Shown here: positions 45,527-51,196 of the stretch, piece after piece
How positions within the stretch are numbered: position 1 is the first letter of the stretch
Layout: each line of letters starts with the position of its first letter
Source of the DNA: Niabella sp.
GTDB lineage: Bacteria; Bacteroidota; Bacteroidia; Chitinophagales; Chitinophagaceae
Length of the DNA stretch: 51,196 nt
Direction of reading: 5' to 3'
NCBI GenBank assembly: GCA_027493055.1
Contig: JAPUDO010000101.1
Span: 1 to 51,196 of the forward strand
Position numbers and translations under genes: made by a program
The notes under the pieces: generated by a model
What the model saw: the letters and a program-made list of their open reading frames with translations, nothing else
Databases searched by the model: none
What the model was told of the DNA's origin: nothing

Positions 45527-46423
45527 GTGAAAAAACCTCAATATTTAACTATTTTCATAGCTGTTGCTGTGCTGTGCCTGCTTTGGGCTTTTGGAAGCAT
45601 CAAATCCAATCCAACATCTGCCCACGAGGGACACGCTCATGAAGACGGTCATGACCACCCGGCTCCCGCCTCTGCCGGGGGAGGGGTATTAATATCTTCA
45701 TTTTCAATTGATAGCGCTTTGGGGGCCGCTAAAAATAAATTGTCAAAGGAAAATATATCCCGTATAGACCAGCTTGAAGCTTCGGTTGCTAAGGCGGGGG
45801 GCTCTCAACAGAAATTACATGCTTATCACCAGCTTTCGGGGTACTGGAAAGACAGTATAAAAGCATTTATACCCTATGCCTGGTATATTGCTGAAGAAGC
45901 CAGGTTGGAAAATTCAGAAAAAAACCTCAATTTTGCAGGCCATTTGTTTTTGAACAATCTGCAGCATATAGAAAATGCAGAAATGGCAAGATGGATGGGA
46001 CTACAGGCAAAAGACCTGTTTGAAAGATCTTTGAAGCTTAATCCCGGCAACGACTCGGCAAAAGTAGGTTTAGGCGCTACTTATATGTTTGGCGGAATAT
46101 CCAATGCCCCTATGGAGGGTATTGCTAAAATACGGGACGTGGTAACTAAAGACAGCACTAATGTGTATGCGCAAATGACTTTGGCAATGGGCTCGCTTAT
46201 GAGCGGACAAACTGATAAAGCCAAAGAGCGCCTTGAAATAGTTACACGGCTGGATCCTGAAAACCTGCAGGCAGTATTATTGCTGGCAGATGTTTACGAA
46301 AAGCAGGATAATAAACAGGAAGCTTTAAAATTTTATCAGAAAGCATTACCACTGGTAAGTAACCATGCGGAAATGAAAACTGAGCTTGAAAAAAGGATTA
46401 TTGCTTTAAAAAAGCAGAATTAA
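45527..46423 (+). CDS. Membrane-anchored TPR protein with His-rich segment
   Basis: The protein of about 298 residues has an N-terminal helix (YLTIFIAVAVLCLLWAFGS) and then a histidine-rich stretch HEGHAHEDGHDHP that could bind metal. Residues about 150-298 form tetratricopeptide repeats (DSAKVGLGATYMFGG, NVYAQMTLAMGSLMSGQTDKAKERLEIV, NLQAVLLLADVYEKQDNKQEALKFYQKALP). It probably is an envelope scaffold; partners are unknown. The GTG start at 45527 fits the promoter box; an ATG-less extension upstream is less likely. The 29-residue basic protein gene follows 33 nt later. Confidence 0.78.
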   Translation: MKKPQYLTIFIAVAVLCLLWAFGSIKSNPTSAHEGHAHEDGHDHPAPASAGGGVLISSFSIDSALGAAKNKLSKENISRIDQLEASVAKAGGSQQKLHAYHQLSGYWKDSIKAFIPYAWYIAEEARLENSEKNLNFAGHLFLNNLQHIENAEMARWMGLQAKDLFERSLKLNPGNDSAKVGLGATYMFGGISNAPMEGIAKIRDVVTKDSTNVYAQMTLAMGSLMSGQTDKAKERLEIVTRLDPENLQAVLLLADVYEKQDNKQEALKFYQKALPLVSNHAEMKTELEKRIIALKKQN

Positions 46424-46456
46424 CTATTATTAAACAATATTAAAATTATTTGAACT

Positions 46457-46546
46457 ATGCCTTGTGGTAAAAAAAGAAAACGTCATAAAATTGCAACTCA
46501 TAAGCGCAAAAAAAGACTAAGAAAAAACCGTCATAAGAAGAGATAA
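46457..46546 (+). CDS. 29-residue basic protein, AURKAIP1/COX24 (mS38-like)
   Basis: The frame encodes MPCGKKRKRHKIATHKRKK followed by RLRKNRHKKR, a very basic peptide nearly identical in type to a short protein conserved in Bacteroidota and annotated as AURKAIP1/COX24 domain protein, related to the mitochondrial ribosomal protein mS38. It is probably a ribosomal protein. It lies between the TPR gene and ribonuclease G and is followed by a strong terminator. It is easily missed because of its size. Confidence 0.88.
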   Translation: MPCGKKRKRHKIATHKRKKRLRKNRHKKR

Positions 46547-46578
46547 GCTCTTTTTATACAAAAAAATATATTCTGCAT

Positions 46579-46599
46579 AAAGCCCCATAGCGGGGTTTT
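46579..46599 (+). terminator. Intrinsic terminator after the small basic protein gene
   Basis: AAAGCCCC (46579-46586) pairs with GGGGTTTT (46592-46599), with a five-base loop, and leads into TTTTA. It ends the TPR/basic-protein transcript 32 nt after the stop. The 145 nt that follow, before rng, hold no clear promoter box. Confidence 0.75.
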
Positions 46600-46744
46600 A
46601 TGTGATTATATCCGTTTTCATACACTTTATCGTTATATGCATTTTTCCAGCCTTTAAATGCCATATACTTTTTTCTGCCTGCATTAAAATAACGTATAAA
46701 GTAGGTTAGGTTTACTTAATAAGACATAGCCATGTTCATAGGTA

Positions 46745-48292
46745 ATGAATAAAGAAATTGTAATTAATGCCGCTCCTACCGGTGTTGAAATAGCTTTGTT
46801 GGAAGATAAGAAGCTGGTAGAGTTGCATAGCGAAAAAAGCGATGCCCGTTTTGCTGTTGGCGATCTTTATCTGGGCAAGGTAAAGAGGCTTATGCCCGGG
46901 CTTAACGCTGCATTTATAGATGTAGGTTTTGAAAAGGATGCATTTTTGCATTATACTGATCTGAGTCCCTACGCTAAGTCACTATTGAAATTCACCAATC
47001 TGGCCATGTCGGCTACAGATGCAAATCCGGTTGATTTCTCAAAATTCGATGTGGAGCCAGAGATAGTAAAAACCGGCAAGATCAGCGAAGTTTTGGGGGG
47101 TAAACCGCATGTTCTGGTGCAAATACTAAAGGAGCCTATTGCGGCAAAAGGTCCGCGCCTGAGCTGCGAGTTATCGCTGCCCGGCAGGTTTGTGGTAATT
47201 ACCCCTTTCAATAATATAGTTGCAGTATCTAAAAAGATCCATTCTTCCGAAGAAAGGAAAAGATTGCAAAAAATTATTGAGGCAGTAAAGCCTAAAAATT
47301 TTGGTGTAATTGTAAGAACGGCTGCCGAAGGTAAAAATACCGCAGAGCTTTATGAAGACCTGGGCAACCTGGTGAATATCTGGAAAACGGTGCAGCAAAA
47401 CCTGAGAGGGGCAGTAGCGCCTACTAAAATTTTCAGCGAGCAGAACAAAACCAATAGCATCCTGAGGGATTTGTTAAGCGCCGATTACAACCGCATTGTC
47501 ACCAACGATAAGAATATTTTCAACGAAACCAAAAATTATATCCAGCGTATTGCGCCCGAAAAAGCAGAAATTGTTAACCAGGCGCAGGGCAATGTATTTG
47601 ATACACTGGGTATTACCAAGCAGGTAAAGGGCTCTTTTGGAAAAACAGTAACTCTTAACAGCGGCGCTTACCTGATTATTGAGCATACTGAGGCCCTGCA
47701 TGTTATTGATGTGAACAGCGGCTATAAAAATGTAGGTAATAACCAGGAACAGAATGCGCTCGAAACCAACCTGGAAGCTGCTGCTGAAATTGCAAGACAG
47801 CTCAGGCTGAGGGATATTGGCGGGATCATTGTGGTTGATTTCATTGATATGAAGCTTGCCGAAAATAAGAAAAGGCTGCATGAGGTGATGGAGGAAGTAA
47901 TGACAGCAGACAGGGCCAAGCACTCGGTATTGCCTATATCAAAATTTGGTTTGATGCAGATAACGCGGCAGCGTATGCGCCCCGAAGTAAACATCAATAC
48001 CCAGGAAGTATGCCCCAGCTGTAATGGCAGCGGCAAGATATCTTCTACATTAGTGCTGGAGGATGAAATTGAAAAGAACCTGAGCTATCTTATTACACAT
48101 AAGCATAAAAACCTTAAGCTGGTGGTACACCCCATTATGTACGCCTATTTAACCAAAGGCCTTTGGTGGAGCAGTAAATTAGCTAAATGGAATAAACACT
48201 TTGGGCAGAAAACCCGGTTAGAAAAAAATACTTCCTATCACCTTACAGAGTATCATTTTTTTGATGCTAATGATGAGGAAATAAAGTTTTAA
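46745..48292 (+). CDS. rng: Ribonuclease G / E family endoribonuclease
   Basis: The 515-residue protein is a RNase G-type enzyme that cleaves single-stranded RNA and matures 16S rRNA. It has the S1-like start (DLYLGKVKRLMPGLNAAFIDVGFEKDAFLHYTDL), the RNase-H-like 5' sensor region, the catalytic metal site LHVIDVNSGYKNVG, then GGIIVVDFIDMK, and the Zn-link Cys pair CPSC. It lacks the long C-terminal tail of RNase E. Its stop overlaps the convergent small gene at 48289 by four bases. Confidence 0.95.
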   Translation: MNKEIVINAAPTGVEIALLEDKKLVELHSEKSDARFAVGDLYLGKVKRLMPGLNAAFIDVGFEKDAFLHYTDLSPYAKSLLKFTNLAMSATDANPVDFSKFDVEPEIVKTGKISEVLGGKPHVLVQILKEPIAAKGPRLSCELSLPGRFVVITPFNNIVAVSKKIHSSEERKRLQKIIEAVKPKNFGVIVRTAAEGKNTAELYEDLGNLVNIWKTVQQNLRGAVAPTKIFSEQNKTNSILRDLLSADYNRIVTNDKNIFNETKNYIQRIAPEKAEIVNQAQGNVFDTLGITKQVKGSFGKTVTLNSGAYLIIEHTEALHVIDVNSGYKNVGNNQEQNALETNLEAAAEIARQLRLRDIGGIIVVDFIDMKLAENKKRLHEVMEEVMTADRAKHSVLPISKFGLMQITRQRMRPEVNINTQEVCPSCNGSGKISSTLVLEDEIEKNLSYLITHKHKNLKLVVHPIMYAYLTKGLWWSSKLAKWNKHFGQKTRLEKNTSYHLTEYHFFDANDEEIKF

Positions 48293-48519
48293 TTTTTATT
48301 AAGGAGAAACCGGAAAGGTTTTAGCTGCTCTTTTTGTACGGCTGCCAGTATTTTACTTCTTTTGGAGGTAATACGGTTCCTGTTTACCAGTTCATGGGCG
48401 TTACAAAACCCGTCTATATTATCAACACGGGCAATAACTGCGTTAAGGTATTCTTCCCCGGGCGTTACAGACCGGGCGTCTTTTACCAAAAAAATAATAT
48501 CTCTGTTATACTTATTCAT
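48289..48519 (-). CDS. Hypothetical 76-residue protein
   Basis: I do not recognise this frame. It begins MNKYNRDIIFLVKDARSVTPGEE and contains FCNAHELVNRNRITSKRSKIL, which has the balance of a helical domain, so it could be real. It converges with rng with a four-base overlap. No promoter box is evident upstream. The stretch 48520-48706 between it and the next gene holds a 14-base palindrome (TCGTAAT and ATTACGA, 48616-48629) but no other feature. Confidence 0.4.
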   Translation of the reverse strand: MNKYNRDIIFLVKDARSVTPGEEYLNAVIARVDNIDGFCNAHELVNRNRITSKRSKILAAVQKEQLKPFRFLLNKN

Positions 48520-48706
48520 GAAAGCGCTTCCATGCAGTATTGCTCATAAAATAACAATAGCTGCACAGCCATTGTTGCATCTTTTGACAACCGTTTTACC
48601 AATATCAAAGCACCGTCGTAATATTACGAATGGTAAATTTACTTTATTTTACAATTAATTATTCCTAAAGCTTCAAATTTGTATGTTAATTTTTTGATCT
48701 GAATCA

Positions 48707-49819
48707 ATGCCGCACTTCCAAAAGCTGAAAATACTGGTGGCTCCGCTGGATTGGGGACTGGGACATACTACCCGGTGCATTCCCCTCATCCATGAATTAT
48801 TAAAGCAAGGTGCTGAAGTATTATTGGCTGGTAATGAGGTTCAGAAAAAAATACTGGAAGCAACATTTCCGCAATGCCCTTTTTTACCGTTGAACGGCTA
48901 TAATGTAAAGTATGCCGGCAGCGGCGGTGGTTTTATGATAAAAATGATGCGCCAGCTTCCGCGCATTCTGTCTGTGATAAAGGCTGAGAATGCCTGGCTG
49001 AAGCAGGTAATAGCTCACCATAATATTGATGGAGTGATAAGTGATAACCGGTTTGGGCTTTATCATGCAGGAACGCCCTGTATTTTTATGACGCACCAGC
49101 TGCAGGTAAAAACCGGTATGGGCAAGGCTGCAGATATATTGGCGCGAAACATCAATTACAGGCAGATCAAAAAGTTTTCTGCCTGCTGGGTACCTGATTT
49201 TGAAGGAGCTGTTAACCTGGGCGGGGAGCTGTCTCATCCCGCAATTATGCCTGTTACCCGGTATCGGTACATTGGCCCGTTATCCCGGATGGATTATACT
49301 GACAGCCAGGGTTCCCCCAAACATATCCTATTCATCCTGTCCGGCCCCGAGCCGCAAAGGACGATTTTAGAAAACAAAGTTTTCGGGCAGATTGAGCATA
49401 GTAAGGCTCCTGTAGTGATTGTAAGAGGGATGCTCCTGGATACAAAGCCTCCTGTTTTTAAAAATGCAATAATATATAATCACTTGCCTGAAAATGAGCT
49501 GCAGCAGCTTATGCAGGAAGCTGAATATATTGTATGCAGAAGCGGGTACAGCTCTGTTATGGACATTAATGCAATGAAGGCAAAGGCCATACTGATACCT
49601 ACACCCGGCCAAACCGAACAGGAGTACCTGGCGACCCATCTGATGAAGAACAAATTTGCGGTAAGCGGCAGCCAGCAGGCTTTTGATGTGCGTAGCTTAT
49701 TTGAAAACGCAGGCCGGTTTTCTTATGAAGGATTTATTAAACCGGATGCCCGTCTTTTATCTGAAGCCATAGATATATTTTTAGCGGATTGCAGAACAGC
49801 GCGTTCTGCAATCCGCTGA
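48707..49819 (+). CDS. Glycosyltransferase (GT1/GT28-like, MurG fold)
   Basis: The 370-residue protein begins KILVAPLDWGLGHTTRCIPLIHELLKQGAEVLLAGNE, the N-terminal nucleotide-sugar transferase fold of the GT-B type, and has a C-terminal acceptor-nucleotide site (ILFILSGPEPQR, YIVCRSGYSSVMD, PTPGQTEQEYLATHL) like GT28/MurG. It should transfer a sugar from a nucleotide donor, perhaps to a lipid or surface glycan; donor is unknown. Its last codons (tail DCRTARSAIR) are encoded by a 15-bp perfect hairpin that overlaps the stop. Confidence 0.82.
   Translation: MPHFQKLKILVAPLDWGLGHTTRCIPLIHELLKQGAEVLLAGNEVQKKILEATFPQCPFLPLNGYNVKYAGSGGGFMIKMMRQLPRILSVIKAENAWLKQVIAHHNIDGVISDNRFGLYHAGTPCIFMTHQLQVKTGMGKAADILARNINYRQIKKFSACWVPDFEGAVNLGGELSHPAIMPVTRYRYIGPLSRMDYTDSQGSPKHILFILSGPEPQRTILENKVFGQIEHSKAPVVIVRGMLLDTKPPVFKNAIIYNHLPENELQQLMQEAEYIVCRSGYSSVMDINAMKAKAILIPTPGQTEQEYLATHLMKNKFAVSGSQQAFDVRSLFENAGRFSYEGFIKPDARLLSEAIDIFLADCRTARSAIR
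49783..49817. terminator. 15-bp perfect hairpin over the end of the glycosyltransferase gene
   Basis: Arms 49783-49797 and 49803-49817 are exact reverse complements around the loop AGCGC. It lies between two convergent genes that end seven bases apart and probably stops transcription from both sides, though no T tract follows on either strand. Confidence 0.6.
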
Positions 49820-49825
49820 AGCAGG

Positions 49826-50755
49826 TTAAAATTTAAACATAAAACCAACTCCCAGCATAGATTTTATCTGCGTGGCAGGGGAGGTATTGTCGGGGCCAAA
49901 CAGTTTTGCATCATCATCATAGATCATGTCAAGGCTGTAGGTAAGCGTAAGGTATTTGGTAAGCTGCATATTCAGCATATTGGTCCAGTAAAGGTCAACG
50001 TTTTGCGGATTTTCCAGGTAGTTGGAATAAAGATCCAGGCGGCTTTTATAAGAAAACGTTTTATTGATCTCTTTCCTGTAGTTTAAAGATGCAAAGGCGC
50101 CGAACTCGGTTTTGGCATGTTTACCGGGATCTACTCCATACGCCCCTGCAGCAGACAGGGAATCATTTGTTACAATGGTCCACCTTACAGTAGCGGGAGA
50201 AATAAAGGCAGAAAATGCTTTATCAGGCTTCCATTCAAAACCCGGGCTTAGCAAAACATAAGCAGGTGACAGAAAGTTAGAGCTAAGAGTGCGGTTGCCG
50301 TCACCATCATAAGTATAACCTCTGAACATTTGTGAGCGGAAGTTGAATAAAGCACCGGCATTCCATTTTTCCGAAATGGCATAGCCATATTTGGAAACCA
50401 GGTCTATACGGTCATCATTTTTTCTGCTTCCTAGTGAAGTGGTATTCATATAACCCAGGTTGACATCAAGGGTATTGTCCCAGCTGTGTTTATTTTTTTT
50501 ATAAAAAGCGTAAGTGCTGAGGTTGCCATTTATAGCAAGAGAAAATTTATCACCACCTGCGGCCCAGTTGCTTAACGAGCCCTGCGCTGCGTTTAGCCCA
50601 AAGAACCCTCCTGTTTTCCATACTTTAGAAGAGGTATCGTTAGGATCTTTTTTTATTTCCCGCTCAGCTTCTTTTTTAAGATTTTTTACTGTTGCGTCCT
50701 GCGAAAATGCGGTCATACCGCATAGGACGGTAATTACAAATAATACTTTTCTCAT
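49826..50755 (-). CDS. DUF3078 outer-membrane beta-barrel-like protein
   Basis: The 309-residue protein has a signal peptide (MRKVLFVITVLCGMTAFSQ) and the DUF3078 pattern (VWKTGGFFGLNAAQGSLSNWAAGGDKFSLAINGN, YAFYKKNKHSWDNTLDVNLGY), with alternating strands and a C-terminal aromatic residue (GFMFKF), as in outer-membrane barrels. Function is unknown. The start is ATG 50755; the upstream extension lies across the promoter box at 50774-50781. Confidence 0.87.
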   Translation of the reverse strand: MRKVLFVITVLCGMTAFSQDATVKNLKKEAEREIKKDPNDTSSKVWKTGGFFGLNAAQGSLSNWAAGGDKFSLAINGNLSTYAFYKKNKHSWDNTLDVNLGYMNTTSLGSRKNDDRIDLVSKYGYAISEKWNAGALFNFRSQMFRGYTYDGDGNRTLSSNFLSPAYVLLSPGFEWKPDKAFSAFISPATVRWTIVTNDSLSAAGAYGVDPGKHAKTEFGAFASLNYRKEINKTFSYKSRLDLYSNYLENPQNVDLYWTNMLNMQLTKYLTLTYSLDMIYDDDAKLFGPDNTSPATQIKSMLGVGFMFKF

Positions 50756-50773
50756 ATCTGTTATTGTTGGCTG

Positions 50774-50781
50774 CAAAAATA
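50774..50781 (-). promoter_or_regulatory. -7 box of the DUF3078 gene
   Basis: TATTTTTG on the minus strand matches TAnnTTTG and lies 18 nt before the ATG at 50755. The -33 region is weak. Confidence 0.4.
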
Positions 50782-50981
50782 GGTATCTAATCATGAATAG
50801 ATTATAGGAAATAAAATTTATATTTGAAACGGTGGTTTTGGAATACTGACTTGCTGCAGGCAAAATTTTTAGTATAACTGCTTAAACAGGTACTAATACT
50901 TTAGGAACAGATTTATTGCTTTTGATGCAGGAGAGGAGCAGATCTTGCCTGATGAAACAGTTATCTGCAACGCAAATGTAA

Positions 50982-51016
50982 TGCAAACAAAAAACCTCCG
51001 CTGTAAGCGAAGGTTT
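50982..51016 (-). terminator. Intrinsic terminator of the tRNA-like RNA
   Basis: Arms 50992-51002 and 51006-51016 pair (AAACCT/AGGTTT and CGCT/AGCG, one mismatch) with a three-base loop. On the minus strand it is followed by TTTTGTTTG. It starts six bases after the 3' end of the tRNA-like fold, so it closes that short transcript. The rest of 50782-50981 holds nothing recognisable. Confidence 0.8.
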
Positions 51017-51022
51017 AAAGTG

Positions 51023-51184
51023 CTGTAGGGGGAGGGGTCGAACCTCCACGAGGCGGTTAGCCGCAACACAAAGTTCAGTGGTCAATCCTGGTCGGCCTGA
51101 CGGTCGGCTCTATGTTGTGTTTATCCCGTGATCCTCACCCTCGAGACAAGAGGGCATGTCTGCCAAAAATTTCATCACCCCACA
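51023..51184 (-). ncRNA. tRNA-like RNA, class II (Leu-like) with about 90-nt variable region
   Basis: The minus strand folds as a tRNA. The acceptor arm is TGTGGGG (51184-51178) with CCCTACA (51030-51024), one G-U, then discriminator G. After TG come D-stem ATG/CAT with loop holding GG, and an anticodon stem CCCTC/GAGGG (51154-51150, 51142-51138) with loop TTGTCTC, so the anticodon triplet would be GTC (51147-51145). T arm GGAGG/CCTCC encloses TTCGACC. U8, A14, G18-G19, T54-T55-C56 and A58 are all kept. The variable region (51137-51048) is about 90 nt instead of 10-23: a base stem GAGG/CCTC, an inner stem AACACAA/TTGTGTT and a small GCGG/CCGC hairpin. No CCA is encoded. It is not the tmRNA pattern. 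A terminator follows; the promoter is outside the window. Confidence 0.75.
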
Positions 51185-51196
51185 ATTTTTAAGAAC

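Follow-up and report, generated by a model that had tools for sequence, protein, structure and literature searches.

A family of tRNA-like RNAs with a giant variable arm, encoded beside AsnC-like regulators in Bacteroidota, as a candidate carrier for asparagine synthesis

The tRNA-like RNA at the contig end

The contig JAPUDO010000101.1 of Niabella sp. (Chitinophagaceae, Bacteroidota), analyzed here in full as a window of 51,196 nucleotides (nt), encodes near its end a tRNA-like RNA with a GUC anticodon and an unusually large variable arm. An earlier note on this DNA had described a cloverleaf with all the contact bases of a tRNA and had suggested that the RNA derives from a tRNA and has taken on a new role. 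The RNA lies on the minus strand and runs from position 1 at 51184 to C74 at 51022, that is, 163 nt before CCA completion, with a score of 193.3 bits under our covariance model R1. Its shape is that of a complete class II cloverleaf, with a 7-bp acceptor stem, U8 and a D loop that contains GG, and the described cloverleaf is borne out in its details.

The 5′ strand of the acceptor stem is UGUGGGG (51178..51184), in which U1 and G2 are positions of the invariant type; the 3′ side (51022..51030) consists of CCCUACA (51030-51024), the discriminator G73 (51023) and C74 (51022). The D arm (51156..51175) has a 3-bp stem and the loop GGCAGA, where GG-C is present without a following U. In the anticodon arm (51138..51154), a 5-bp stem closes the loop UUGUCUC (51149-51143), with GUC at 51147-51145, base 33 at 51148, U as base 37 at 51144 and C38 at 51143; the anticodon, U37 and the G discriminator are thus as first read. 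The T arm (51031..51047) has a 5-bp stem, with 100% of cells paired in 31 copies, and the loop UUCGACC. The giant variable arm spans 87 nt (51136-51050), close to the length of about 90 nt given before, and is built of the helices GAGG/CCUC (51136-51133 with 51053-51050), CGG/CCG (51128-51126 with 51056-51054) and CAACAUA/UGUGUUG (51117-51111 with 51070-51064), followed by an inner hairpin (51089-51077). A conserved internal loop has the 5′ half GAUAAAC (51119..51125) and a 3′ half with CUAA inside 51063-51057. Downstream of C74, a hairpin and T run that resemble an intrinsic terminator (50988..51017, minus strand; identified by eye from the sequence, unscored) agree with the earlier claim of a terminator of its own. 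The window edge lies 12 nt upstream of the RNA, and the promoter and the neighboring regulator gene fall outside the window.

In 14 of 15 ordinary tRNAs examined from the same genome, the discriminator is likewise followed by one encoded C; the remaining one, a tRNA-Pro, encodes CCA (ends as set by ARAGORN). ARAGORN, a check of the kind that the earlier note had suggested, called no tRNA in the window, this RNA included, and a search of 46000-51196 against Rfam gave nothing up to E=1, in line with the remark that no named family fits. A tmRNA was rejected as a candidate identity, the tmRNA of this genome lying elsewhere (C30:9349-9762, 107.7 bits, over the cut-off) and the present RNA having an anticodon arm.

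Conservation, covariation and distribution

Homologues of the RNA were found by BLAST in 37 of 59 genomes, our own included. The alignment A1, made from 31 copies, supports a 38-pair structure in which 98.5% of cells are paired and 14 pairs are changed on both sides, in 76 such cells; none of 500 shuffles scored as high, and slid structures reached 45-60% pairing. Eleven of these 14 pairs are in the variable arm, where all four helices have some, so that the compensatory changes for which the earlier note had proposed to look are present; acceptor pairs 6 and 7 also show two-sided changes. The same structure fits 93 distinct rows from named loci with 98.4% pairing and 17 pairs with two-sided changes, although this alignment was fitted to the covariance model and leans towards the structure. 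Loose regular expressions for the two halves of the internal loop match 137 of 143 distinct copies. An eighth acceptor pair, 0:73, formed as U.G or C-G throughout A1, was considered and dropped as not required, as some distant copies have A at position 0. Folding energy alone is ordinary (z -1.0, with 31 of 200 shuffles equally stable); it is because the RNA is conserved and covarying that we regard the family as real. It is a structured RNA family of Chitinophagaceae and other Bacteroidota. Two findings that would have refuted the earlier note, arms without covariation and a match in Rfam, were not made.

With the covariance model we searched 298 genomes from the order and 296 from the phylum, at a family threshold (E<1e-22) of our own choice, under which weak true members may count as absent. 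The listed scores form two groups, one above 83 bits and one below 60 bits with lengths of 83-86 nt; we took the latter, by length and score, to be ordinary class II tRNAs. In the phylum sample, 31 of 296 genomes carry the RNA; they belong to the order of our genome, to four other families within its class (f23, f28, f29, f30) and to a single family from outside that class (f67). The named relatives include members of Niabella, Terrimonas, Niastella, Chitinophaga, Flavihumibacter and Sediminibacterium. Some genomes have multiple copies (four in G087, three in tandem in both G586 and G594), and more than one copy is present in 16 of the 79 named loci that have the RNA.

Several variant forms were observed. 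Short forms of 109-127 nt (L021 1755-1876, L024 1728-1845, L053 6259-6372 and L108-L113), commonly arranged in tandem with long copies or among themselves, are missing the inner domain of the arm and retain, as judged by eye, its first two helices and the internal loop (A)UAAA(C)/(G)CUAA. A 211-nt copy carries additional inserted sequence in both its D loop and its variable arm (L050 6051-6261, L162 2121-2331).

An AsnC-like regulator gene usually adjoins the RNA

The RNA is usually encoded next to a gene for an AsnC-like protein. Among the best 80 of 330 loci encoding relatives of this protein, all near relatives with 77-97% identity, the RNA is on the opposite strand, in divergent orientation, in 79, at a distance of 139-376 bp (median 152). 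In the single exception, L160, the AsnC-like gene is kept and the RNA is absent from its usual place (around 2000-2500). Approached from the side of the RNA, the AsnC-like gene adjoins it in 28 of 29 loci (L003-L031), the exception, L026, being at a contig end, and in 32 of 34 loci in the set L059-L093 (own locus excluded; some genomes repeated), where L080 is cut off and L092 has no AsnC-like gene. Among more distant RNA loci (L094-L114), it is present in 13 of 21.

The best relative of the AsnC-like protein in the PDB is E. coli AsnC (115.6 bits, compared with 46.5 for Lrp). Against the NCBIfam AsnC model the protein scores 159 bits with a cut-off of 227, and we therefore call it AsnC-like without filing it as AsnC. 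In E. coli, asnC and asnA are arranged in divergent order. The E. coli protein is an activator of asnA and is responsive to asparagine (PMC4482635). The present arrangement is alike in that an AsnC-type regulator is paired with a putative asparagine-supply gene, and unlike in that an RNA gene stands in place of the enzyme gene; no AsnC gene beside asnA was seen in the loci L153-L156.

In 22 aligned regions upstream of the RNA, the motif ATTTG...TAnnTTTG and an AT-rich block are largely kept. We take the motif to be the Bacteroidota form of the promoter. The AT-rich block (TCTATATTTTCAAAATTTTT-like) ahead of it in the 22 loci is a candidate operator of the regulator. A separate observation is an ArfB-type tRNA hydrolase gene (L247 7128-7553, plus strand; 124 bits against an NCBIfam cut-off of 100) that lies on the same strand as an RNA copy and about 180 bp upstream of it, with a similar arrangement by eye in L246; both are from one genus and have no AsnC neighbor. 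This gene could encode a release enzyme, or it may be a chance neighbor.

Aspartate identity combined with an amidation mark

Base counts were taken over 148 copies from two alignments (143 distinct), with one 68-nt fragment dropped from all counts; loop counts cover 146 copies, two rows with an insertion shift having been dropped. An ordinary decoding tRNA(Asp) has U33 and a purine at position 37, together with a class I variable loop and a G1:C72 pair. The RNA family departs from this pattern: base 33 is T in 110, C in 29, A in 6 and G in 1 of the loops, base 37 is T in 139, C in 5 and G in 2, the arm in the window is 87 nt long, and the first acceptor pair is U1:A72 in 146 of 148 copies. 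With bases 33 and 37 variable, the RNA does not look like a decoding tRNA, and the view that it is not a normal tRNA gains support.

Other positions are nearly fixed. Aspartate identity is conferred mainly by G73, G34, U35, C36 and C38, with help from G1-C72 and G2-C71, and G10 is also tabled (PMC9976931). All the strong determinants for aspartyl-tRNA synthetase (AspRS) are characteristic of the RNA family, with G34 in 145 of 146 loops, U35, C36 and C38 in all 146, and G73-C74 in 147 of 148 copies (the other reads NN); G2:C71 is present in 147 of 148. Acceptor pairs 4-7 vary, pairs 6 and 7 with compensation. The combination of a Leu-like D arm, an Asp anticodon and a G discriminator, which the earlier note had found hard to place, can be reconciled if the anticodon loop and G73 serve AspRS and not the ribosome. 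Charging with leucine was rejected, given that the bacterial Leu determinant is A73 (PMC9976931) and the RNA has G73.

The pair U1-A72 confers amidation on Asp-tRNA(Asn), and G1-C72 together with U20a prevents amidation of tRNA(Asp) (PMC9976931). The RNA family has the marks of a substrate of the amidotransferase GatCAB, namely U1:A72 and no U20a: in 141 of 143 distinct copies (2 unparsed), GG in the D loop is followed by C or U and then by A. The ordinary tRNAs of our genome obey the same published code of identity and amidation: tRNA-Asp has G1:C72, GG-UU in the D loop and the anticodon loop CUGUCAC, and tRNA-Asn has U1:A72. Judged by these bases, the RNA unites the principal aspartate determinants of tRNA(Asp) with the mark by which tRNA(Asn) is amidated, with neither antideterminant present.

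Co-occurrence with gatB and asparagine synthetases

The presence of GatCAB was judged from gatB. In the family f1 (36 genomes, our own included), the RNA and gatB are present or absent together in all 36, 31 having both and 5 neither (p=2.7e-6; these and the following Fisher p-values ignore kinship and are hence optimistic). The five genomes that lack both (G006, G017, G021, G027, G033) are spread over five genera; G001, G002, G012 and G028, where gatB is below the cut-off or fragmentary, were counted as having it. Across 55 genomes of the order, i.e. the 59 minus 4 whose RNA status was not tested with the model, 38 have both, none the RNA only, 6 gatB only and 11 neither (p=1e-7; p=5e-7 for the 48 that remain after 7 less complete genomes are dropped). 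In the phylum sample, all 31 carriers have gatB, where gatB is common (253 of 296, mostly outside the own class; p=0.012); within the own class, the RNA is present in 29 of 33 gatB-positive genomes.

Asparaginyl-tRNA synthetase (AsnRS) scores over its cut-off in 57 of 59 genomes, including ours, and these bacteria therefore need free asparagine. AsnA is over the cut-off in 4 of the 59 and AsnB in 43, which leaves 14 with neither (G000, which is our genome, G001, G002, G003, G007, G008, G011, G012, G016, G031, G032, G034, G036 and G051). All 14 have the RNA and gatB (p=0.0026 over 55 genomes). Five of them (G001, G002, G012, G016, G051) are less complete; within the 48 more complete genomes, 9 of 9 that lack a recognizable synthetase carry both (p=0.018). 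The five f1 genomes without the RNA each have a synthetase, AsnA in G006 and AsnB in the other four.

The only large asnB relative of our genome was rejected as AsnB, with 183 bits against a cut-off of 267 and a start without MCG. It is nearer to the NCBIfam lasso-peptide cyclase (302 bits, itself under the cut-off of 525). Sub-cut-off asnB matches also occur in G002, G003, G008, G012 and G016, and were counted as no AsnB. In our genome, an ABC transporter, the cyclase nearest to lasso cyclases and a kinase-like gene stand in a row (L238, G000:C50:64000-72000), an arrangement that resembles a lasso-peptide cluster.

A proposed RNA carrier for asparagine synthesis

From the conserved bases, the neighborhood and the co-occurrence, we propose that the RNA is probably a dedicated, translation-disabled mimic of tRNA, which AspRS charges with aspartate and GatCAB converts to Asn-RNA, so that asparagine is supplied under the control of an AsnC-type regulator. 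The RNA would be transcribed from the intergenic region that it shares with the divergent AsnC-like regulator gene and trimmed like a tRNA, with CCA completed on G73-C74. A normal AspRS would aspartylate it by reading G34, U35, C36, C38 and G73, and GatCAB would then amidate Asp-RNA to Asn-RNA, because the RNA has U1:A72 and is without U20a, unlike tRNA-Asp. Asparagine would be released by hydrolysis or by a partner of the giant arm and feed AsnRS, with RNA levels set by the regulator. Altered bases at 33 and 37, together with the large arm, would keep the RNA off the ribosome, which would be useful because a GUC anticodon that carries asparagine would place it at Asp codons. Since a discriminating AspRS uses tRNA-Asn poorly, an additional RNA that combines an Asp anticodon loop with an Asn-type acceptor would be of use. 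None of this link to GatCAB, AsnC and asparagine was foreseen in the earlier note.

A close precedent is the tRNA-dependent synthesis of asparagine on tRNA(Asn) in AsnRS-bearing Bdellovibrio, Deinococcus and Thermus, where aspartate on a U1:A72 RNA is likewise amidated by GatCAB, AsnRS is kept and AsnA/AsnB may be missing (PMC4206432). Unlike in that system, the carrier proposed here is a non-decoding RNA in its own right, bearing an Asp anticodon loop, so that a normal, discriminating AspRS would suffice.

Several observations weigh against the proposal. Among the 55 genomes of the order, 6 have gatB with no RNA detected, and, besides the disregard of kinship in the tests, the association of the RNA with a missing synthetase is not significant within f1 alone (12/19/0/5, p=0.15). 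An asparagine synthetase, AsnA or AsnB, is over the cut-off in 24 of 38 carriers, and therefore the RNA is not simply a stand-in for the enzyme. The bacterial Asp determinant G10 is mostly absent, with A:U in 126 and G:C in 11 of 148 copies and A in the window, and the RNA lacks the G1-C72 pair, which helps E. coli AspRS (PMC9976931). In one copy (L111 1501-1616, from G480), C34 in the loop CUCUCUC makes the sole break of GUC among the 146 loops. The AsnC-like gene is absent nearby in 8 of the 21 distant loci, and none was found in ten larger regions around the exceptions or in L046. The proposal also requires asparagine to be freed fast enough, and it does not account for the inner arm. As an observation apart, G392, a congener of G480, has gatB and no detected RNA.

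Alternative explanations

If the RNA were aspartylated and amidated as a charge sensor, which reports the status of Asp/Asn or of nitrogen to the AsnC-like regulator or to a protein bound to the giant arm and does not supply asparagine, the tight pairing with the regulator gene, the coexistence with a synthetase in 24 of 38 carriers, and arm motifs that are kept in 137 of 143 distinct copies and look like a binding site would all fit. We nevertheless consider a sensor unlikely, as it alone would leave unexplained the presence of the RNA in all 14 genomes without an over-cut-off AsnA or AsnB, and AsnC of E. coli is a DNA-binding protein that free asparagine modulates (PMC4482635). It is improbable, too, that the RNA is a bystander that does something else in lineages where a non-discriminating AspRS charges tRNA-Asn and GatCAB acts on the product. 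That our tRNA-Asn has U1:A72, and that Bdellovibrio provides a precedent (PMC4206432), speak for such a route; it would, however, give no reason why the bases for Asp and GatCAB are fixed in the RNA, and our AspRS belongs to the bacterial aspS type (688 bits), reading FGS where the tRNA(Asp/Asn) ligases of P. aeruginosa and mycobacteria read HGG. The histidine at the HGG site presumably marks the class of AspRS, and its absence here is a weak hint at a discriminating enzyme.

The non-decoding loop with retained charging identity would also suit a non-ribosomal donor, with Asn- or Asp-RNA handing the residue to a transferase for attachment to a lipid, cell-wall or peptide product. In staphylococci, a non-decoding tRNA-Gly is such a donor. 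This role is nonetheless quite improbable for the present RNA, which tracks gatB and missing asparagine synthetases; moreover, no transferase was recognized beside the loci inspected by eye, most neighbors not having been searched against families. The allo-tRNAs and tRNA(Sec)-like RNAs share with it the class II shape, the long variable arm, G73 and an odd anticodon, and GUC ranks with the most frequent anticodons in 8/4 allo-tRNAs (PMC7609411), which might suggest a recoding tRNA charged by seryl-tRNA synthetase (SerRS) via the long arm and G73. We regard this as extremely improbable: the acceptor branch is 7/5, not 8/4 or 9/3, with the 7-bp and 5-bp helices 100% paired in 31 copies, the nested-helix arm is far larger, A72 is found against the C72 listed for bacterial Ser (PMC9976931), and whereas allo-tRNA anticodons are diverse (PMC7609411), here G34-U35-C36 and C38, the Asp-type loop bases, are fixed and U33 is not. 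A further tRNA-like RNA, the bacterial Y RNA YrlA, came into view by the arm text GACC...UUGACC, which resembles the Y motif; however, its partner protein Rsr/Ro60 (TROVE) occurs in 1 of 59 genomes, against 37 of 59 for the RNA, and Rfam offers no match. A Y RNA identity, suggested by the likeness of the arm text GACC...GUUGACCAC to the Ro/Rsr motif, was rejected on the same count of TROVE.

Implications

A literature search, with most subscription journals and bioRxiv beyond its reach, found no paper on this RNA. Returning to the proposed asparagine carrier, it would explain how asparagine is synthesized in Bacteroidota that have AsnRS and GatCAB and no recognizable asparagine synthetase; Bacteroidetes are listed among such bacteria, the tRNA specificity of their AspRS being in need of clarification (PMC4206432). 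We give roughly even chances to the broader view that this family represents a class of tRNA-derived RNA cofactors, withdrawn from translation as standing carriers for the biosynthesis of free asparagine, in which an AsnC-type regulator controls the RNA where that of E. coli controls AsnA. The RNA would then be a tRNA turned metabolic carrier, and the pathway a living example of amino acid synthesis bound to RNA.
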